A stretch of 64,000 nt of DNA, from positions 248,001-312,000 of the forward strand of contig NZ_CYSP01000002.1 in assembly GCF_001298735.1 (NCBI RefSeq). The letters are read 5' to 3'. Positions 5,284 through 15,748 of the stretch are shown here, one piece after another (position 1 is the first letter of the stretch; every line of letters begins with the position of its first letter). The notes beneath the pieces were generated by a model that was not told the DNA's origin, searched no databases, and saw only the letters and a list, made by a program, of their open reading frames with translations. A program made the position numbers and the translations under genes. The stretch comes from Propionispora sp. 2/2-37 (GTDB taxonomy: Bacteria > Bacillota > Negativicutes > Propionisporales > Propionisporaceae).

Positions 5284-6126
5284 TCACAGTTTTAGAGTTG
5301 ACGGCCTACTAGCCTCCAGTATTTTCTTGGCTAACGCCGTATTTAGAGCATGGCCTGATTTCACAGCAATTACGTGTCCACGCACAATCCCGGCCAGGGA
5401 CAGGTCGCCAATGACGTCCAGTATTTTATGCCGGACCAGTTCGTCGGAAAACCGCAGCGGATTGAGTGGTTTCCCGTTCTCATACACCAGGGCATTATCC
5501 ATGCTGCCCCCCAGCGCCAGCCCTTGCTCCTGCAAAGATTTGATCTCATGCATAAAACCAATGGTCCGGGCCGGGGCAATTTCCCGGATAAAGGTATCCG
5601 GATTAATTTCGTAATCCCCGAATTGCACCCCCAGCTCCGGATGGGGATTTACGGAAGTAAAGCTGATACGCAGACCGTCATAAGGCAACAGGGCAATGAA
5701 TTTATCCTCCACCCGTATACTATATTCCCTGTCTACCGCAATAACCCTGCGTGGCGCCGCCAGTTCAAGCCTGCCCGCCTGCTGCAGCAGGTTGACAAAC
5801 GTAAGTGAACTGCCGTCACCTACCGGCGGTTCAGCGGCATCCAGCTCCACCAGGCAGTTATCCACTTCCAGCGCCGAAAAAGCAGCCAGCAGATGTTCCA
5901 CGGTAAAGACCCTGGCTGCACCGCCTTCCAGCGTGGTTGCCCGCTGGGCATTGGTGACATACGACGCGCTGGCTTTCACTCCGGGTCTGTCCGGCAAGTC
6001 GGTCCGGACAAAAACAATGCCGGTCTCAGCCGTTGCCGGGTTCAGCGTCATGGTTACATTCTGCCCCGAGTGCAGGCCGATACCGGTATATGATATTTTC
6101 TGGGCAATTGTAGTTTGGTTGTGCAT
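5284..6126 (-). CDS. lpxC: UDP-3-O-acyl-N-acetylglucosamine deacetylase
   Basis: Zinc amidase catalysing the committed step of lipid A synthesis. Zinc ligands are visible as EHLLAAFSALEVDN (His near residue 78) and RHKILDVIGDLSLAG (His and Asp near 233-237); PARTIGFM near 188 and the C-terminal HALNTALAKKIL are also typical. The 280-residue length is normal; it is the single-domain form, not the LpxC-FabZ fusion found in Bacteroidetes, although fabZ follows. The ATG has AGAAAGG ten bases upstream and a promoter about 40-65 bases upstream. It leads the lpxC-fabZ-lpxA-lpxI unit. Confidence 0.97.
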   Translation of the reverse strand: MHNQTTIAQKISYTGIGLHSGQNVTMTLNPATAETGIVFVRTDLPDRPGVKASASYVTNAQRATTLEGGAARVFTVEHLLAAFSALEVDNCLVELDAAEPPVGDGSSLTFVNLLQQAGRLELAAPRRVIAVDREYSIRVEDKFIALLPYDGLRISFTSVNPHPELGVQFGDYEINPDTFIREIAPARTIGFMHEIKSLQEQGLALGGSMDNALVYENGKPLNPLRFSDELVRHKILDVIGDLSLAGIVRGHVIAVKSGHALNTALAKKILEASRPSTLKL

Positions 6127-6231: not shown

Positions 6232-6275
6232 CGCAAAAATAGGACATAGCGGCTGCATAGCCTGCCGCTATGTCC
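6232..6275 (-). terminator. Intrinsic terminator after the ABC ATPase gene
   Basis: Perfect 12-base stem GGACATAGCGGC / GCCGCTATGTCC (6264-6275 and 6242-6253), then a T-rich tail on the minus strand. It begins seven bases after the ATPase stop and separates that operon from lpxC. Confidence 0.85.
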
Positions 6276-6282
6276 TCAGGCT

Positions 6283-7056
6283 TTAGGCAATCCGTTTTCC
6301 TGCCAGCGTTAACGCATTGGTGTTCATCTGGTACTGAATCAACTCCTTATACTTTTCGCCGATATCGGAAACCGGATGAACAAACACTTCGGATGGGATT
6401 CCCTCTTCCTTGATGCGGCCTTGATCCATCAGCACAATGCGGTCGGCTACATGCAGGGCAAAGGGAATTTCGTGGGTTACGACCAGCATGGCACTGGCAC
6501 GGTATTTAGCCAGTTCTTCCATAACCACCAGCACTTCGCGTACCAGTATGGGATCGAGCGAGGCCGTCGGTTCATCCCACAGCATCAAGTCCGGCTCAAA
6601 AGCCAGGGCTCTGGCAATGCCCACGCGCTGCTGCTGACCACCCGACATTTCCCCCGATTTATGCCCGGCATGGCTCTCCATGCCTACTTTGCGCAGCGCT
6701 TCCTTCGCTTTTTCCTCCGCCGCATCCCGCGGCATGCCGCCCATAACCAGCCCCAGCATGACATTTTCCAGTGCTGTCAGGCGGCCGATCAGGTTAAATT
6801 GTTGAAATACAAAACCAATCCGCTTGCGAATCCGGCGCAGCTCATCATCATTCATGGCAACAATATCCCGGCCGGCAAACAGGATGCTGCCGCCGTCCGG
6901 TTCAATCAAACGGTTGACGGCGCGGATGGTGGTCGATTTACCGCAGCCCGACGGCCCCATCAGCACAACGGTTTCTCCGGCAGCCACTTTTATGCTGACA
7001 TCTTCCACCGCCGTTACCTTGCCAAACCGTTTACAAAGATGGCTGATTTCCAACAT
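6283..7056 (-). CDS. ABC transporter ATP-binding protein paired with a large-periplasmic-domain permease
   Basis: 257-residue stand-alone ATPase. Walker A GPSGCGKSTT near residue 34, Q-loop FVFQQFNLIGRLT near 83, signature SGGQQQRVGIARAL near 138, Walker B LMLWDEPTASLDP near 160, and H-loop VVTHEI near 194 are all intact. By sequence it is closest to the polar-amino-acid (GlnQ/HisP) and MacB/LolD groups, which share this signature. A C-terminal extension of about 25 residues (IQYQMNTNALTLAGKRIA) is not part of the core fold. It lies 12 bases downstream of the 790-residue permease and ends at a terminator, so the pair forms a two-gene operon inside the lipid A block. Substrate unknown; no solute-binding protein is present. 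Confidence 0.85.
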   Translation of the reverse strand: MLEISHLCKRFGKVTAVEDVSIKVAAGETVVLMGPSGCGKSTTIRAVNRLIEPDGGSILFAGRDIVAMNDDELRRIRKRIGFVFQQFNLIGRLTALENVMLGLVMGGMPRDAAEEKAKEALRKVGMESHAGHKSGEMSGGQQQRVGIARALAFEPDLMLWDEPTASLDPILVREVLVVMEELAKYRASAMLVVTHEIPFALHVADRIVLMDQGRIKEEGIPSEVFVHPVSDIGEKYKELIQYQMNTNALTLAGKRIA

Positions 7057-7068
7057 GCCTGTTCCTCC

Positions 7069-9441
7069 TTACTTAAATTTAATCTTACGCCGATTCAGTT
7101 TCTGCATTAATCCGGGACGTCCGCCGGGCACCACAATCTCCCGCATGATCTCATCAAAAGACAGCCCCATGGCTTCACCGGCCATGACCTCTTCCGTGGA
7201 CACCGGATTAATTTTCTCCGCATAGCCGGCGGCAATTAGTCCCAGCAGCGCTCCAATCACCGGTACGCCCAGCCAGGGCAGATAGGGGATGCCGCCGTCT
7301 GCCAGAATAAACATGGCAGTCAGCATGACGGCTCCCACGGCCATACCGTACCGGCGCTCCACAGCGGTAAAGGTAATCATAACCCGGTAAACCACCCCGC
7401 GCCAGCCGGAATGCGTCGTTTTGACCGCCAGCCGTTTGCGGCGCATAACCGCCATAACTGCCGTATGATCCAAAGCCAGAAAAACCAGTGTGGCAATCAT
7501 GGCCATCAAACCGGCCAGAATAGCCCGCACCTCATTGAGTACTTTATATACCTGGCCGCGGGTATCCGGCTCAATGACACCCAGGTCGCTGGAATAAAGC
7601 GAGGCGTTGCTGTGCCCCACCTGCGCTTCCACCAGCGGTGCCACCGCTTCAGTACCGATATTGCGGCTGGTGAGAATTTGAATCCGTTCTCCCGGTATAA
7701 CCTGTCCGTCAATAAAGTTATCGAGCAGTTTTACCGAACGGCCGATTTCCTCGTCTTTTAGTGCCGGAACGGCCTGTGCCATATACTGTAACTGCGCGGT
7801 AACCAGCGGAACATTGATATGATTTAATTTGTCCAGTTGTTCGCTGGCACCGGCCAGGTTTTGTTTTGCCCCCTGGACATCAAAAGACCGCAAGTTGGCA
7901 ATGCTGTCCTGCCCGCTAACCGTAATCGTATTGATCAGGCCCTGCACCTGCTTTGCCTGATCAGACACTGTCTCCAGCGCCCCCAGGGTCTCACTGAGGC
8001 CGGTCAGGTTTTGCTGTGCCCCGTCAATTGCATTGACTGTATCTTTCACTTCGGGATTAATCAGCTGGACCACCTGCAGCCCGGTACTGATTCGGCTTAA
8101 AGCCTGGCTGGAGTTATCCACCTGCGTCCGGATCCCTTTGGTGTCCAGTCCGGCCAGATTGCCGGTAACCGTCTGAATGGTGCCGCCGGCTGACTGCAGA
8201 CTGTCCAGCGTTTTTTCCATGGCGTCCACGCTGTTGTCGTAGTTGTCCAGCGCCCGCAGCGAAATTTGGGCCAGATTGCGGCTGTTTTCGGCAAATTCCG
8301 GCACCTGTTCCACCAGCTTTGTCGTTTCATTCAACGCCTGCCCCAGCTCCTGCCGCGGGTTGCGGTAACTTGCCTTCCCGACCGCATTACCGACAATACT
8401 ATTGGATACTTTGTAACCTTCCGGGTTGAGCAATGCGGAAGCATCCCCCTGGACAATCATGCCTTTTACCGTCCCGCCGGTTTCTACTTCCGTAACCTCC
8501 ACCAGCACATTGGCCGGGTCGACCGGTCCGCCGGTCGCCGGCGGCGTCTGAGCCGTCCCCTGGAAGGCCACCATGTCGCCCTGCAACAGCCTGGTTCCCT
8601 CGTTAACAGCGATCGTTACTTCCGAGGCATACGCCTTCAAAAAGCGCTTTAGCTCCATCATGGTGCTTACCGTATAAGTCATATTATCGTTTTTGCCGTC
8701 AACGGATACATTTTCCGCCTCTGTGGCTTGCAGTTTTTCCTTCATTTCGGCGGCAATCGTCTCGCCCAAACGAATGGGATTGTCCGGTTCGCTGCCTACC
8801 GGAAAGCTAATCTCAATCACCTGATATTGCTGTAATAATGCTTTAATTTGTTCATTGACCGCCGCCGATTGTTCCAGACTGGATAAAATCACCCCAACAG
8901 ACGAGCCGTCATGAAAAGCAAAATTTACGCCCGGGATGCCGCCGATCTGTTCAATCAGTTTATTCCGGGCACCTTCCGGCACACCCCGGATGGTAAGGCG
9001 GGGCTCAGTCATCACACCGACACCGGCACCACCCGGTATTCCGCCGAAGGTTTTCCCTAAATTGTCATATACTTCTTTCGTCCGGTATTCCGGTGGTAAA
9101 GCAATAAAAAAGTTTGTTTTGCCGGTGATGGTCGGTCCTTCTTTTAACGTCGCTCCCGGAAAAACATCCGCAATAATATTTTGAATTTGTGTAGCCGTAT
9201 CTTGTTTCATTTCTTCCCGCGCCTGAATAATCAGATCGTATTCTCCATAGTCACCGACCATGCTGGAAAGTGTCTTGGAAAAATAGGCATTAGCCGATAA
9301 TGACAAGGTACTGGAAAGCAATGACCCAATCACTATGCTTACAACCAGCAGCACGATTATGTCGCGGTTGAACGTATCGGTAAACAGTCTCTGCCCTATT
9401 CTTTTTACTGTTTTAACTGTCTCGGTTCCTGTCACTGACAT
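7069..9441 (-). CDS. Four-span ABC-type permease with giant periplasmic coiled-coil domain
   Basis: 790 residues. One membrane helix at about 28-50, then about 590 periplasmic residues, then three helices at about 640-662, 700-717 and 721-742 and a 45-residue cytoplasmic tail. This is the topology of the type VII ABC superfamily (MacB, LolC/E, FtsX). The periplasmic part has an N-terminal globular section (MVGDYGEYDLII near 60) and a long Ala/Gln/Leu-rich helical section at about 360-560. I do not recognise the family by sequence. It has its own promoter, GAGGTG seven bases before the ATG, and is followed after 12 bases by its ATPase. Location between the LpxL-like and lpxC genes points to envelope biogenesis; lipid or lipoprotein handling is inference. 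See findings. Confidence 0.75.
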   Translation of the reverse strand: MSVTGTETVKTVKRIGQRLFTDTFNRDIIVLLVVSIVIGSLLSSTLSLSANAYFSKTLSSMVGDYGEYDLIIQAREEMKQDTATQIQNIIADVFPGATLKEGPTITGKTNFFIALPPEYRTKEVYDNLGKTFGGIPGGAGVGVMTEPRLTIRGVPEGARNKLIEQIGGIPGVNFAFHDGSSVGVILSSLEQSAAVNEQIKALLQQYQVIEISFPVGSEPDNPIRLGETIAAEMKEKLQATEAENVSVDGKNDNMTYTVSTMMELKRFLKAYASEVTIAVNEGTRLLQGDMVAFQGTAQTPPATGGPVDPANVLVEVTEVETGGTVKGMIVQGDASALLNPEGYKVSNSIVGNAVGKASYRNPRQELGQALNETTKLVEQVPEFAENSRNLAQISLRALDNYDNSVDAMEKTLDSLQSAGGTIQTVTGNLAGLDTKGIRTQVDNSSQALSRISTGLQVVQLINPEVKDTVNAIDGAQQNLTGLSETLGALETVSDQAKQVQGLINTITVSGQDSIANLRSFDVQGAKQNLAGASEQLDKLNHINVPLVTAQLQYMAQAVPALKDEEIGRSVKLLDNFIDGQVIPGERIQILTSRNIGTEAVAPLVEAQVGHSNASLYSSDLGVIEPDTRGQVYKVLNEVRAILAGLMAMIATLVFLALDHTAVMAVMRRKRLAVKTTHSGWRGVVYRVMITFTAVERRYGMAVGAVMLTAMFILADGGIPYLPWLGVPVIGALLGLIAAGYAEKINPVSTEEVMAGEAMGLSFDEIMREIVVPGGRPGLMQKLNRRKIKFK

Positions 9442-9467: not shown

Positions 9468-9497
9468 ATTATATCATGTATATCAATAACCTGTCTA
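9468..9497 (-). promoter_or_regulatory. Promoter of the permease-ATPase operon
   Basis: Minus-strand -35 TAGACA (9492-9497), 18-base spacer, -10 TATAAT (9468-9473). Transcription would start near 9461, 20 bases before the permease ATG. Confidence 0.65.
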
Positions 9498-9545
9498 TTC
9501 GTATATACTTTTTAAAGCAAATGTATATACTGGAAGTTGTTCCAC

Positions 9546-9598: not shown

Positions 9599-10495
9599 TT
9601 ATGTATTTCCGTCCGGGGAATGCTTCCAGCGGTTATGTAGCCAAAACCATTCCTGCGGGAACCGGCGGATATGGTTTTCAATAATGGTTGTCAATTGTTG
9701 TGTCGTTGTGGCAATATCCTGCTCCCGGTCTGCTGTTTTTTGCATCCACAGCGGCGGATGAATAATAACCGTATGTGTACCGTCCGGCTGTTCCGTAATA
9801 AATGCCGGTACGATCGGTGCTTCCTTCAGCCGGGCCAAGGCGGCCGCACCGGGCGGCGTCGATGCCTGCCGGTCAAAGAAAGTCACAAATACACCGTCAT
9901 GGCCGGCATCCTGGTCCATCAGCAGGCCGACAATCTTTCCCTGCCCCAGCATCCGTACCATTTCCCGAACACCGCTTTTATAAGTGACATGCATACCGGC
10001 CATGGTACGGTATTCATTAATAAAGCGATCCATGGCGGCATTTGTCTGTTTCTGGGCAACGGCAATAACCGGAAAACCGTTCATGGCCAGTGAAGCCCCT
10101 AATATTTCCCAATTGCCACTGTGTGCTGTCGCCAACACCACGCCCCGCTTATGGGACAGGGCTTCCGTCAAATAATCCTTGCCCTCCATCCGTACTTTTT
10201 GCCCGATATTCTCCGGATTGAGTTTTGGCAGGCAGAGCACTTCCATCAGCATGCGGCCAAACCGTGTGGCACTTTGCCGGGCTACCCGCTCTGCCGACCG
10301 TTCATCCATCGCCAGGCTGCGGCTGATATTCTGCACTGCCATCCGACGCCTTTTCTTAGGAACCAGCGGCCAGCACACCTCTCCGAGCAGGTTGCCGAGG
10401 CTCCGCCGGCAGCCCGCCGGCAGGGCACACACCAAACGGCTGCAAAGTTTAACACTATGATAAAGCATGCCGTTCTCCCATCTCTTTTCTTCCAT
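9599..10495 (-). CDS. Lipid A late acyltransferase (LpxL/LpxM family)
   Basis: Membrane-associated acyltransferase that adds a secondary acyl chain to Kdo-lipid A. The catalytic HSGNWE motif is near residue 124; RMLGQGKIVGLLMDQDAGHDGVFVTFF near 190-215 and the C-terminal QEWFWLHNRWK are typical of the family. Length 298 is usual. No strong N-terminal hydrophobic anchor except LVCALPAGC near 22. The ATG at 10495 has AAGGAG 11 bases upstream; a second in-frame ATG at 10468 also has a ribosome site, so nine residues are uncertain. The gene follows the YjbH-like gene by 15 bases. Acyl-chain specificity cannot be read from the sequence. Confidence 0.9.
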   Translation of the reverse strand: MEEKRWENGMLYHSVKLCSRLVCALPAGCRRSLGNLLGEVCWPLVPKKRRRMAVQNISRSLAMDERSAERVARQSATRFGRMLMEVLCLPKLNPENIGQKVRMEGKDYLTEALSHKRGVVLATAHSGNWEILGASLAMNGFPVIAVAQKQTNAAMDRFINEYRTMAGMHVTYKSGVREMVRMLGQGKIVGLLMDQDAGHDGVFVTFFDRQASTPPGAAALARLKEAPIVPAFITEQPDGTHTVIIHPPLWMQKTADREQDIATTTQQLTTIIENHIRRFPQEWFWLHNRWKHSPDGNT

Positions 10496-10510: not shown

Positions 10511-11125
10511 TTAATAAGTATAACTCAGGCCAAAATAAGTATGATGGTCCCGCCAGCCGGTATCAATCTTCACAGCCGGATTGACCATAAACCGGATACC
10601 GACATTCATGCTGCTTCCATCATATTCCGCCATTAGCGCTGCGGCAGGAAAAGTTTTCCCCGGCAGCACACTGACCCGCTTCAGACGTTTTTCCACCCCG
10701 GCAAACAATCCGTCAAAACGTCCGTTTCCCGCCCCGATATGCAGCCTGATGCCATCCGGCAGCGATTTGCTGGCTACCGCATACCAGGAACGCTGCTGCT
10801 CGCCGGTAATGTCTTCCACGCCCAGAGCAACGGCAGGCGTCAGCATGGCTTCCGGCAGCAGGGAAACTTTCGCCTGCAGGCGCATACCGCCCGGCCCCTG
10901 TTCGGAATAAGCGGCCCCCACTTCCATACCGGCAGCGGCATGAAAGGTCAAAACTCCGTGATCATGAGGCCCTATATGATAATAACCGGCAGCAGCCTGG
11001 CCACTGCCCAGCACATCGGCGGAAGGGATAGCAATCAATCCGGTAGCCCCCTGCAGGGAAGGAGCAGCGCTTGCATAACCGCCGCACAAAAAAAAGAACG
11101 CCACTCCCAACAGCCAATTCCGCAT
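10511..11125 (-). CDS. YjbH-like outer-membrane beta-barrel protein
   Basis: 204 residues beginning with a signal peptide (MRNWLLGVAFFFLCGGYASA, cleavage before APSLQG). The mature start, GATGLIAIPSADVLGSGQ, resembles the N-terminus of YjbH/YbjH-type exopolysaccharide outer-membrane proteins. The rest is alternating hydrophobic/polar beta-strands ending in YFGLSYTY with a C-terminal aromatic, as expected for a BAM substrate. It is far shorter than YjbH (~700), so it would form a small barrel of about 8-10 strands. I took the ATG at 11125 because GGGGAG lies six bases upstream and it begins the signal peptide directly. It lies downstream of the lpxD terminator, so may be separately transcribed with the acyltransferase. 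Confidence 0.65.
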   Translation of the reverse strand: MRNWLLGVAFFFLCGGYASAAPSLQGATGLIAIPSADVLGSGQAAAGYYHIGPHDHGVLTFHAAAGMEVGAAYSEQGPGGMRLQAKVSLLPEAMLTPAVALGVEDITGEQQRSWYAVASKSLPDGIRLHIGAGNGRFDGLFAGVEKRLKRVSVLPGKTFPAAALMAEYDGSSMNVGIRFMVNPAVKIDTGWRDHHTYFGLSYTY

Positions 11126-11200
11126 GAAAGCTCCCCCCTGCATCTTGCTTTATAGTATAATTCCGCATTTCGACAGCAAACTCCTGCCAAACTCACACAG

Positions 11201-14443: not shown

Positions 14444-15748
14444 CTACAAATTCCCAACCAGCCGCAGCCACCTGTCGTTTTCGCTGAAAATATATTCCAG
14501 GCTGACAAAGTCATGCAGCTTATAGCGGATTCCCAGCTCATTGCTTTCATCCTGCAGATTGTACTCAAACCGCATCCCCCAGACCGGCGTCAGCTGCTGT
14601 TTAAACCAGAAATAACTTTCCGAATGCGTCAAATCGTATTTAAAGCCGCCGGTAGTCCCTTTTGCCAACGTATAGCCCCAGCCGGGCGAAACCTCCCAGG
14701 ATACCGTGCCGGGTACAAACCCCACTTCAAGAAAGGCCTCGTTGCGCTTGTTGAGATATTTGCCGGCATGCAGCTTGGCCGACGTATTATTGTCCTCCTT
14801 GCCCACATCCAGATACCCTTCCAGCCATAAGTGATAACGGTCGGTTTCCACCTGCAGGTTGATTACGGTATCCTTGCCGGCATCAATGGCCGGTTTGACA
14901 CTCAGACCGTATTTTTGCACGATCGAACGCTTTATCGCCACTTCTTCAAGCTTTTCGGTAAAATATTCATTGTGTCTTTCCACGAAGGCTACCGGCAACC
15001 CGGTCAGCTGCTTGCTCAGTTCTTCCACGGCCGGACGCATTTGTAAGAGAAGCAGGTTGGGAATACTGTCCGAACGCAGGGAAACTCTGGTATCCAATAC
15101 GGTAGGACCGGCCGGGGCTAACGACAGCTTCACCACCGTACGCCGCCCCGGAATAATATCAATACCGGTACGAAATTCCGGCAATTGTTCGGCCAGAATA
15201 TCCCGGATCATGCTCTTGCTTACCATACTTGCCCAGTCTACCGCATCAATGGGCAAGCCTAACAGTACGGTATCGGCTTTACTTTCCAGATCGCCGATAT
15301 CCTGTTGGACCAGCTTTACCAGTTCCGGCGAAAGATTGCCGAAATCATATTCCCAGGCTATGTCCTGTACGGTATCTCCCCAGGGCGCTACCTCTACGGT
15401 AATGGTGCTGTTCCTGCCCGGTTCAATGCTGACCCGCTGGATAATATAGCCGATGAGCACCCGGTCAAATACTTCCTGAATTAGTTTTTCATAAGCTGCC
15501 CTGCTGCCGGCAATATCGGCCACGTTTCGTCCTGCCAGCACATGTTCCCCGACAGTTTTTACACTGGCGGCCATCCGTTTGGCAATCAGCGCCGGCGGCC
15601 TGACCGTCCCGGCCTCCGGAACGACATGAACCGTAATGGTATCAACCGATTCCATGGCGGCCTGCACCGCGCCAAACGGCAGCAAACACATAACCAAAAG
15701 CAGGCCTATTGTGATTGTCCCCCGGCGCCAAGCTGCTGCCCACATCAT
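14444..15748 (-). CDS. Uncharacterised outer-membrane protein with small C-terminal beta-barrel
   Basis: 434 residues. Signal peptide at 1-31 (GLLLVMCLLPFGAVQA). Residues 35-300 are soluble alpha/beta with repeated ITVHVVPEAGTV / STITVEVAPWGDTV / TVVKLSLAPAGPTV / TVINLQVETD segments, which look like three or four related periplasmic modules (POTRA-like spacing, not proven). Residues 305-434 read as about eight beta-strands with aromatic girdles (YHLWLEGYLDVG, KLHAGKYLNKR, WRLR-type end), suiting a small barrel. I do not recognise the family. It lies between bamA and the first ompH gene, so it is probably an envelope assembly or anchoring factor. Confidence 0.7.
   Translation of the reverse strand: MMWAAAWRRGTITIGLLLVMCLLPFGAVQAAMESVDTITVHVVPEAGTVRPPALIAKRMAASVKTVGEHVLAGRNVADIAGSRAAYEKLIQEVFDRVLIGYIIQRVSIEPGRNSTITVEVAPWGDTVQDIAWEYDFGNLSPELVKLVQQDIGDLESKADTVLLGLPIDAVDWASMVSKSMIRDILAEQLPEFRTGIDIIPGRRTVVKLSLAPAGPTVLDTRVSLRSDSIPNLLLLQMRPAVEELSKQLTGLPVAFVERHNEYFTEKLEEVAIKRSIVQKYGLSVKPAIDAGKDTVINLQVETDRYHLWLEGYLDVGKEDNNTSAKLHAGKYLNKRNEAFLEVGFVPGTVSWEVSPGWGYTLAKGTTGGFKYDLTHSESYFWFKQQLTPVWGMRFEYNLQDESNELGIRYKLHDFVSLEYIFSENDRWLRLVGNL

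Follow-up and report, generated by a model that had tools for sequence, protein, structure and literature searches.

A four-span ABC permease and its ATPase, encoded among outer-membrane genes of diderm Bacillota and co-distributed with a sporulation marker

Type VII ABC systems possess 4+4 membrane spans (PMC8386196). An outer-membrane gene cluster containing three unexplained conserved genes is described in the main-text passages of PMC5007114, and those passages make no mention of an ABC pair of the kind presented here. The outer spore membrane of diderm spore-formers originates from the inner membrane, and at outgrowth it must become the LPS- and porin-bearing outer membrane through a mechanism stated to be unknown (PMC7985256). 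A first-pass annotation of a 64,000-nucleotide stretch of DNA from Propionispora sp. 2/2-37 (the window) had proposed that a permease gene and an ATPase gene in the lipid A block encode a type VII-like mechanotransmission machine for outer-membrane lipid or lipoprotein traffic, particular to diderm Firmicutes. Here we compare this pair, referred to as PERM and NBD, with the known systems and examine its distribution across the phylum.

The gene pair and its predicted architecture

ORF calling reproduced the annotated coordinates of PERM, a 790-aa permease gene, and NBD, a 257-aa ABC ATPase gene, both on the minus strand, as well as the 12-base gap between them. The neighbors were likewise identified as annotated, an LpxL-like gene upstream and lpxC downstream. 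The features are given below in the direction of transcription.

9599-10495, minus strand: LpxL-like acyltransferase, conserved upstream neighbor (synteny)
9501-9530, no strand: two GTATATAC palindromes 22 bp apart, operator-like, conserved (motif counts)
9468-9497, minus strand: sigma-A-like promoter TAGACA-18-TATAAT, 11/12, extended -10 (consensus scan)
7069-9441, minus strand: PERM, four-span permease of an unnamed family, 790 aa (homologue and span analysis)
9304-9360, minus strand: TM1 of PERM, residues 28-46 (hydropathy)
8602-9264, minus strand: predicted periplasmic alpha/beta region with ferredoxin-like (porter-like) repeats, residues 60-280 (model pLDDT mostly 65-86; weak fold evidence)
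8359-8592, minus strand: predicted beta-strand domain, residues 284-361 (predicted model)
7765-8358, minus strand: putative helical rod, residues 362-559 (model and alignment)
7468-7524, minus strand: TM2 of PERM, residues 640-658 (hydropathy)
7225-7344, minus strand: TM3 and TM4 of PERM, residues 700-718 and 721-739 (hydropathy)
7108-7212, minus strand: C-terminal EAA-type coupling loop, residues 744-778 (alignment and profile comparisons)
6283-7056, minus strand: NBD, GlnQ-like ABC ATPase and dedicated partner, 257 aa (fused to PERM in another genome)
6234-6276, minus strand: intrinsic terminator 3' of NBD (13-bp hairpin followed by UAUUUUU, z -5.9)
5284-6126, minus strand: LpxC, conserved downstream neighbor (synteny)

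Of 151 Negativicutes genomes, 54 carry full-length PERM homologues, so PERM is not a chance ORF. In one genome (G336) the two genes form a single ORF of 991 residues, indicating that NBD is the dedicated partner of PERM. An assignment of NBD as LptB was ruled out, a separate LptB-like ATPase adjoining lptF/G. As had been annotated, no adaptor or binding-protein gene lies next to the pair, and a cognate substrate-binding protein was found neither at the main locus nor among the scanned neighbors.

Hydropathy averaged over 78 homologues revealed four spans (residues 28-46, 640-658, 700-718 and 721-739), bearing out the proposed layout of one N-terminal span, a periplasmic part of ~590 residues and three C-terminal spans, and the positive charges put the N- and C-termini, together with the TM2-TM3 loop, on the cytoplasmic side. 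The long helical section of the annotation was located at residues ~381-555 by model and alignment. The distance from an NPR motif (residue 362) to Pro559 is 197-198 residues in 41/41 Negativicutes copies, with poor conservation of the sequence in between; outside the Negativicutes the values run from 136 to 258 residues, with little or no variation inside most families. A fixed length combined with a free sequence suggests that this region is a rod or spacer. The C-terminus is the most conserved part of PERM, with Gly759, Pro772 and Pro776 invariant in 78 sequences. A profile of the N-terminal periplasmic part gave weak matches, all to designed ferredoxin-like proteins, in agreement with the strand-helix pattern of the model. 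Models of full-length PERM (pLDDT 56, pTM 0.31) and of its C-terminal 231 residues (pLDDT 54, pTM 0.25), each built from an 11-sequence input, are too poor to define the membrane fold, and a Foldseek search with the former returned no match at E<=0.001, the top match, MmpL5 at 1.6e-3, being suggestive at most.

Searches of Pfam, NCBIfam and the PDB sequences gave no credible match to PERM. A profile of 49 C-terminal regions found MetI as its best PDB match (E 0.019), spanning TM4 and the EAA loop; individually, 20 of the 49 regions matched Pfam BPD_transp_1 (PF00528, best E 1.2e-5), and no recurring match to FtsX or MlaE was seen in the same set. Profile-profile comparison with hhalign gave 70-86% for BPD_transp_1, at most 28% for FtsX and 0% for MlaE. 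The similarity to BPD_transp_1 lies mostly in the EAA loop and does not establish common descent of the whole membrane part. For NBD, the best NCBIfam model is GlnQ (245 bits), followed by FtsE (170) and LolD (165), none scoring above its own cut-off. The type VII-like assignment proposed for the pair was thus not supported, no FtsX or MacB domain having been found, an EAA loop occupying the C-terminus instead and the ATPase being GlnQ-like. By the tests made, PERM appears to join a type VII-like layout to a type I-like coupling element and to be a member of neither class.

FtsEX-type systems control hydrolases, and with this precedent, the identical 1+periplasmic+3 span layout and the porter-like folds suggested by the model, PERM-NBD could be imagined as a type VII system proper, either a MacB-like efflux unit or an FtsEX-like activator of peptidoglycan hydrolases, for example in spore cortex formation or engulfment. 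We regard this as improbable given the domain, loop and ATPase assignments above, the neighboring genes, which are LPS and not cell-wall genes, and the lack of PERM in spore-formers devoid of an outer membrane, which likewise carry out engulfment and form a cortex. It is more improbable still that the EAA loop and GlnQ-like ATPase are those of a degenerate solute importer of the methionine or polar amino-acid type, with the periplasmic part in place of a binding protein, since no spans lie beyond the loop, no binding protein accompanies the pair and the link to LPS genes is invariant.

Linkage to outer-membrane genes and transcription signals

In Negativicutes the gene order BamA-OmpH-LpxD-(YjbH)-LpxL-PERM-NBD-LpxC-FabZ-LpxA-LpxI-LpxB is kept across many families, while distant lineages show the order LptFG-LptD-LptC-LptA-PERM-NBD-LpxC. 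Outside the Negativicutes PERM was found in 77 of 384 other genomes of the phylum; a 30-sequence PERM profile detected it in 78 of 399 phylum genomes, a count that leaves out three weak matches to ordinary permeases. LptF/G accompany PERM in 76 of these 78 genomes and LpxC in 64. The 14 PERM-positive genomes lacking LpxC belong to families f87, f93 and f103; 12 of them retain LptF/G, and in those loci that were read PERM-NBD lies among Lpt genes. The pair is therefore linked to Lpt export at least as much as to lipid A synthesis, and its reading as a lipid A accessory is weakened by the 14 genomes. The annotated tie to outer-membrane lipid genes is supported, and linkage to Lpt persists in lineages without LpxC; the absence of the pair from many diderm Firmicutes, and the way its presence follows sporulation, had been missed. 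In most PERM-less regions read, LpxL or LpxD lies directly beside LpxC, showing that the absence from those regions is real rather than a failure of detection. Among 300 genomes lacking LptF/G, 298 also lack PERM, and the other two are drafts from a family that otherwise harbors LptF/G, so that the proposed confinement to diderm Firmicutes holds in all sampled genomes. No PERM relatives were found on plasmids or viral contigs.

Several further observations were made at these loci. In the three LpxC-less families (e.g., L108, L109, L110 and L135), BamA, OmpH and Lpt genes occur together with PERM-NBD, and the outer membranes probably contain something other than classical lipid A. Next to PERM, single ORFs of ~1030-1140 aa encode an N-terminal LptF/LptG permease domain followed by ~700 residues (L110, 3303-6635, plus strand; L117, 10792-13977, minus strand; similar in L108, L109, L129, L130, L132, L139 and L140); a DUF3769 (LptD-like) match follows the permease domain in L110, and in some diderm Bacillota the LPS exporter of the inner membrane is apparently fused to the LptD barrel of the outer membrane. 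The Propionispora genome has a second, divergent LpxC homologue (G000:C4:192796-193611). In the window, a YjbH-domain (PF06082) protein at 10511-11143 adjoins LpxL. The three lpx regions read from Negativicutes without PERM yielded no such protein, which may likewise follow sporulation. A 434-aa protein at 14444-15748, between the OmpH genes and BamA, is conserved in the block and has no Pfam family.

Second PERM copies, ~52% identical and mostly with their own NBD, occur in some Negativicutes genomes (L050, L051, L052, L053, L067, L077, L078 and L080) outside the lpx block and in unrelated contexts, one of them beside an AcrB-type pump; their neighbors share nothing from which a function could be read.

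The lipoprotein traffic included in the original hypothesis is unlikely, with no Lol system or outer-membrane lipoproteins known in Negativicutes from PMC10665443 and the relevant passages of PMC5007114. A Lol-like lipoprotein exporter acting in place of the missing Lol proteins would agree with the LolCDE-like span layout and with the lack of LolA and LolB in Negativicutes reported in PMC5007114; this explanation is nevertheless hardly tenable when the outer membrane has no known lipoproteins to receive (PMC10665443), non-sporulating Negativicutes manage without PERM, and homology to LolC/E and LolD is absent.

The pair has its own promoter and terminator, as annotated, the former conserved and the latter strong. 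A consensus scan found one strong promoter upstream of PERM. In 33 lpx-linked Negativicutes loci, 28 GTATATAC boxes were observed versus 0.25 expected, eight of the loci harbor two boxes 22-23 bp apart, and in many the spacing to the extended -10 hardly varies; the window itself contains five versus 0.43 expected, the pair at 9501-9530 and single boxes at 1282, 12818 and 62432. No conserved sigF/G/E/K site was found upstream of PERM, a sigG-like match in the window and one relative having been rejected for lack of conservation. A sigma-A-like promoter together with the absence of conserved sites for sporulation sigma factors suggests that PERM-NBD is expressed in growing cells; such expression would be compatible with a preparatory role ahead of engulfment or a role at outgrowth, and equally with a general role in the envelope.

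Co-distribution with sporulation and proposed role

The distribution of PERM was compared with that of SpoIVA (PF09547), a proxy marker of endospore formation, in a sample in which many genomes are drafts. Both genes are present in 50 Negativicutes genomes and neither in 96, while four have PERM alone (G001, G032, G066 and G123) and one SpoIVA alone (G051), these five being 93, 92, 83, 65 and 89% complete. In the other diderm genomes tested, 70 have both, seven neither, one PERM alone (G473, in 470 contigs) and two SpoIVA alone, where the contig stops at or near the expected PERM site (L196 and L198). No discordant genome exceeds 93% completeness. In family f94, PERM and SpoIVA occur together in one genome and are both missing from three, and families f68 and f141 have neither. 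Among 80 genomes without outer-membrane markers, SpoIVA is present in 69 and PERM in none. The presence of PERM thus comes close to the conjunction of an outer membrane and sporulation.

PERM and SpoIVA agree throughout a set of 46 Negativicutes genomes with a completeness of at least 94%, each changing eight times on a tree of MlaEFD, which is encoded in one operon. On the best tree, 8/8 independent pairs are concordant (p 0.008); restricted to strongly supported branches there are three pairs, all concordant (p 0.25). PERM hence tracks the sporulation marker with repeated joint loss, the strongly supported independent pairs being few. Genome size is no explanation, as spore-formers of 1.6-1.7 Mb retain PERM and non-spore-formers of 3.3-3.9 Mb are without it. 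Nor is there a general loss of outer-membrane genes, since MlaE is found in 149 of 151 Negativicutes genomes regardless of PERM, a count that also rules out PERM as a substitute for Mla.

A function of PERM-NBD in sporulation is suggested by this correlation. We propose, with a probability of about 45%, that the pair is a mechanotransmission machine that serves, together with Lpt, to build the outer membrane or restore it in sporulating cells. PERM and NBD would constitute a self-contained ABC unit, probably with PERM as a dimer carrying two NBDs. ATP binding on the cytoplasmic side would act through the C-terminal EAA loop to move an arm in the periplasm, in which porter-like alpha/beta domains are combined with a long helical rod whose length is fixed. 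Acting on outer-membrane lipid beside the Lpt bridge, such a machine would be needed only by sporulating Bacillota with an outer membrane. Its most likely task would be to produce or re-establish the outer membrane that surrounds the spore: the outer spore membrane starts as an inverted inner membrane and has to be an outer membrane at outgrowth, and LPS or another glycolipid may be loaded into it, or inner-membrane lipid may be cleared from it. PERM-NBD fits the gap left by the unexplained conversion of this membrane (PMC7985256) in that it is an ATP-driven inner-membrane machine with a predicted long arm of fixed length, is encoded with Lpt and is kept only with sporulation.

The main competing explanation is a general transporter of outer-membrane lipid (phospholipid or LPS) or a helper of Lpt with no direct part in sporulation, lost along with it in lineages that simplified their life. 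We consider this unlikely, if still a serious candidate: it accommodates the lpx/Lpt linkage, the sigma-A-like promoter without conserved sporulation-sigma sites and the second copies elsewhere, but not readily the joint loss in several distinct lineages, among them a case inside family f94, which lies outside the Negativicutes, the genome-size pattern above, or the retention of MlaE, LptF/G and LpxC by those that lost PERM.

A bolder form of the sporulation proposal, which we put forward tentatively and as somewhat doubtful, is that PERM-NBD is the machine dedicated to giving the inner-derived outer spore membrane the character of a true outer membrane, or that it maintains the outer membrane through sporulation, and that its new ABC architecture, a type I EAA loop on a four-span mechanotransmitter reaching into the periplasm, is ancestral to two-membrane Bacillota. 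To our knowledge of the literature outside subscription journals, PERM-NBD is the first known gene set whose presence requires an outer membrane as well as sporulation, and whose loss has repeatedly coincided with that of sporulation. It makes the question of inner-to-outer membrane conversion testable, ties sporulation to LPS transport, and bears on the debate on whether outer membranes arose through spores.

Comparison with known ABC systems

The Veillonella Mla system (MlaEFD, PMC10665443) resembles PERM-NBD as an inner-membrane ABC machine of a diderm Firmicute with a long helical periplasmic part; PERM, however, has no MCE domain or MlaE homology, and MlaE is present whether PERM is or not. 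The Lpt exporter (LptB2FG-C-A-D) is its genomic neighbor and LptF/G its near-perfect companion in distribution, whereas PERM lacks LptF/G and jellyroll homology, and the same genome has its own LptB, LptA/C and LptF/G genes.

Type I importers (MetNI and the polar amino-acid systems ArtQN/GlnPQ) share the EAA coupling loop and GlnQ-like ATPase. They have 5-6 spans in contrast to the four of PERM, whose loop appears to lie at the extreme C-terminus with no span beyond it, and which differs further in its ~590 periplasmic residues, the lack of a binding protein and its neighborhood of LPS genes.

With type VII systems (MacB, LolCDE and FtsEX), PERM has in common one N-terminal span, a large periplasmic domain and three C-terminal spans, and PERM-NBD may also act by mechanotransmission. 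It departs from them in that homology to FtsX (PF02687) or the MacB periplasmic core was not found, in its different coupling element, in an NBD outside the LolD/FtsE/MacB ATPase subfamily, and in its putative long helical rod of fixed length. PERM thus suggests an ABC permease architecture beyond the currently named types.
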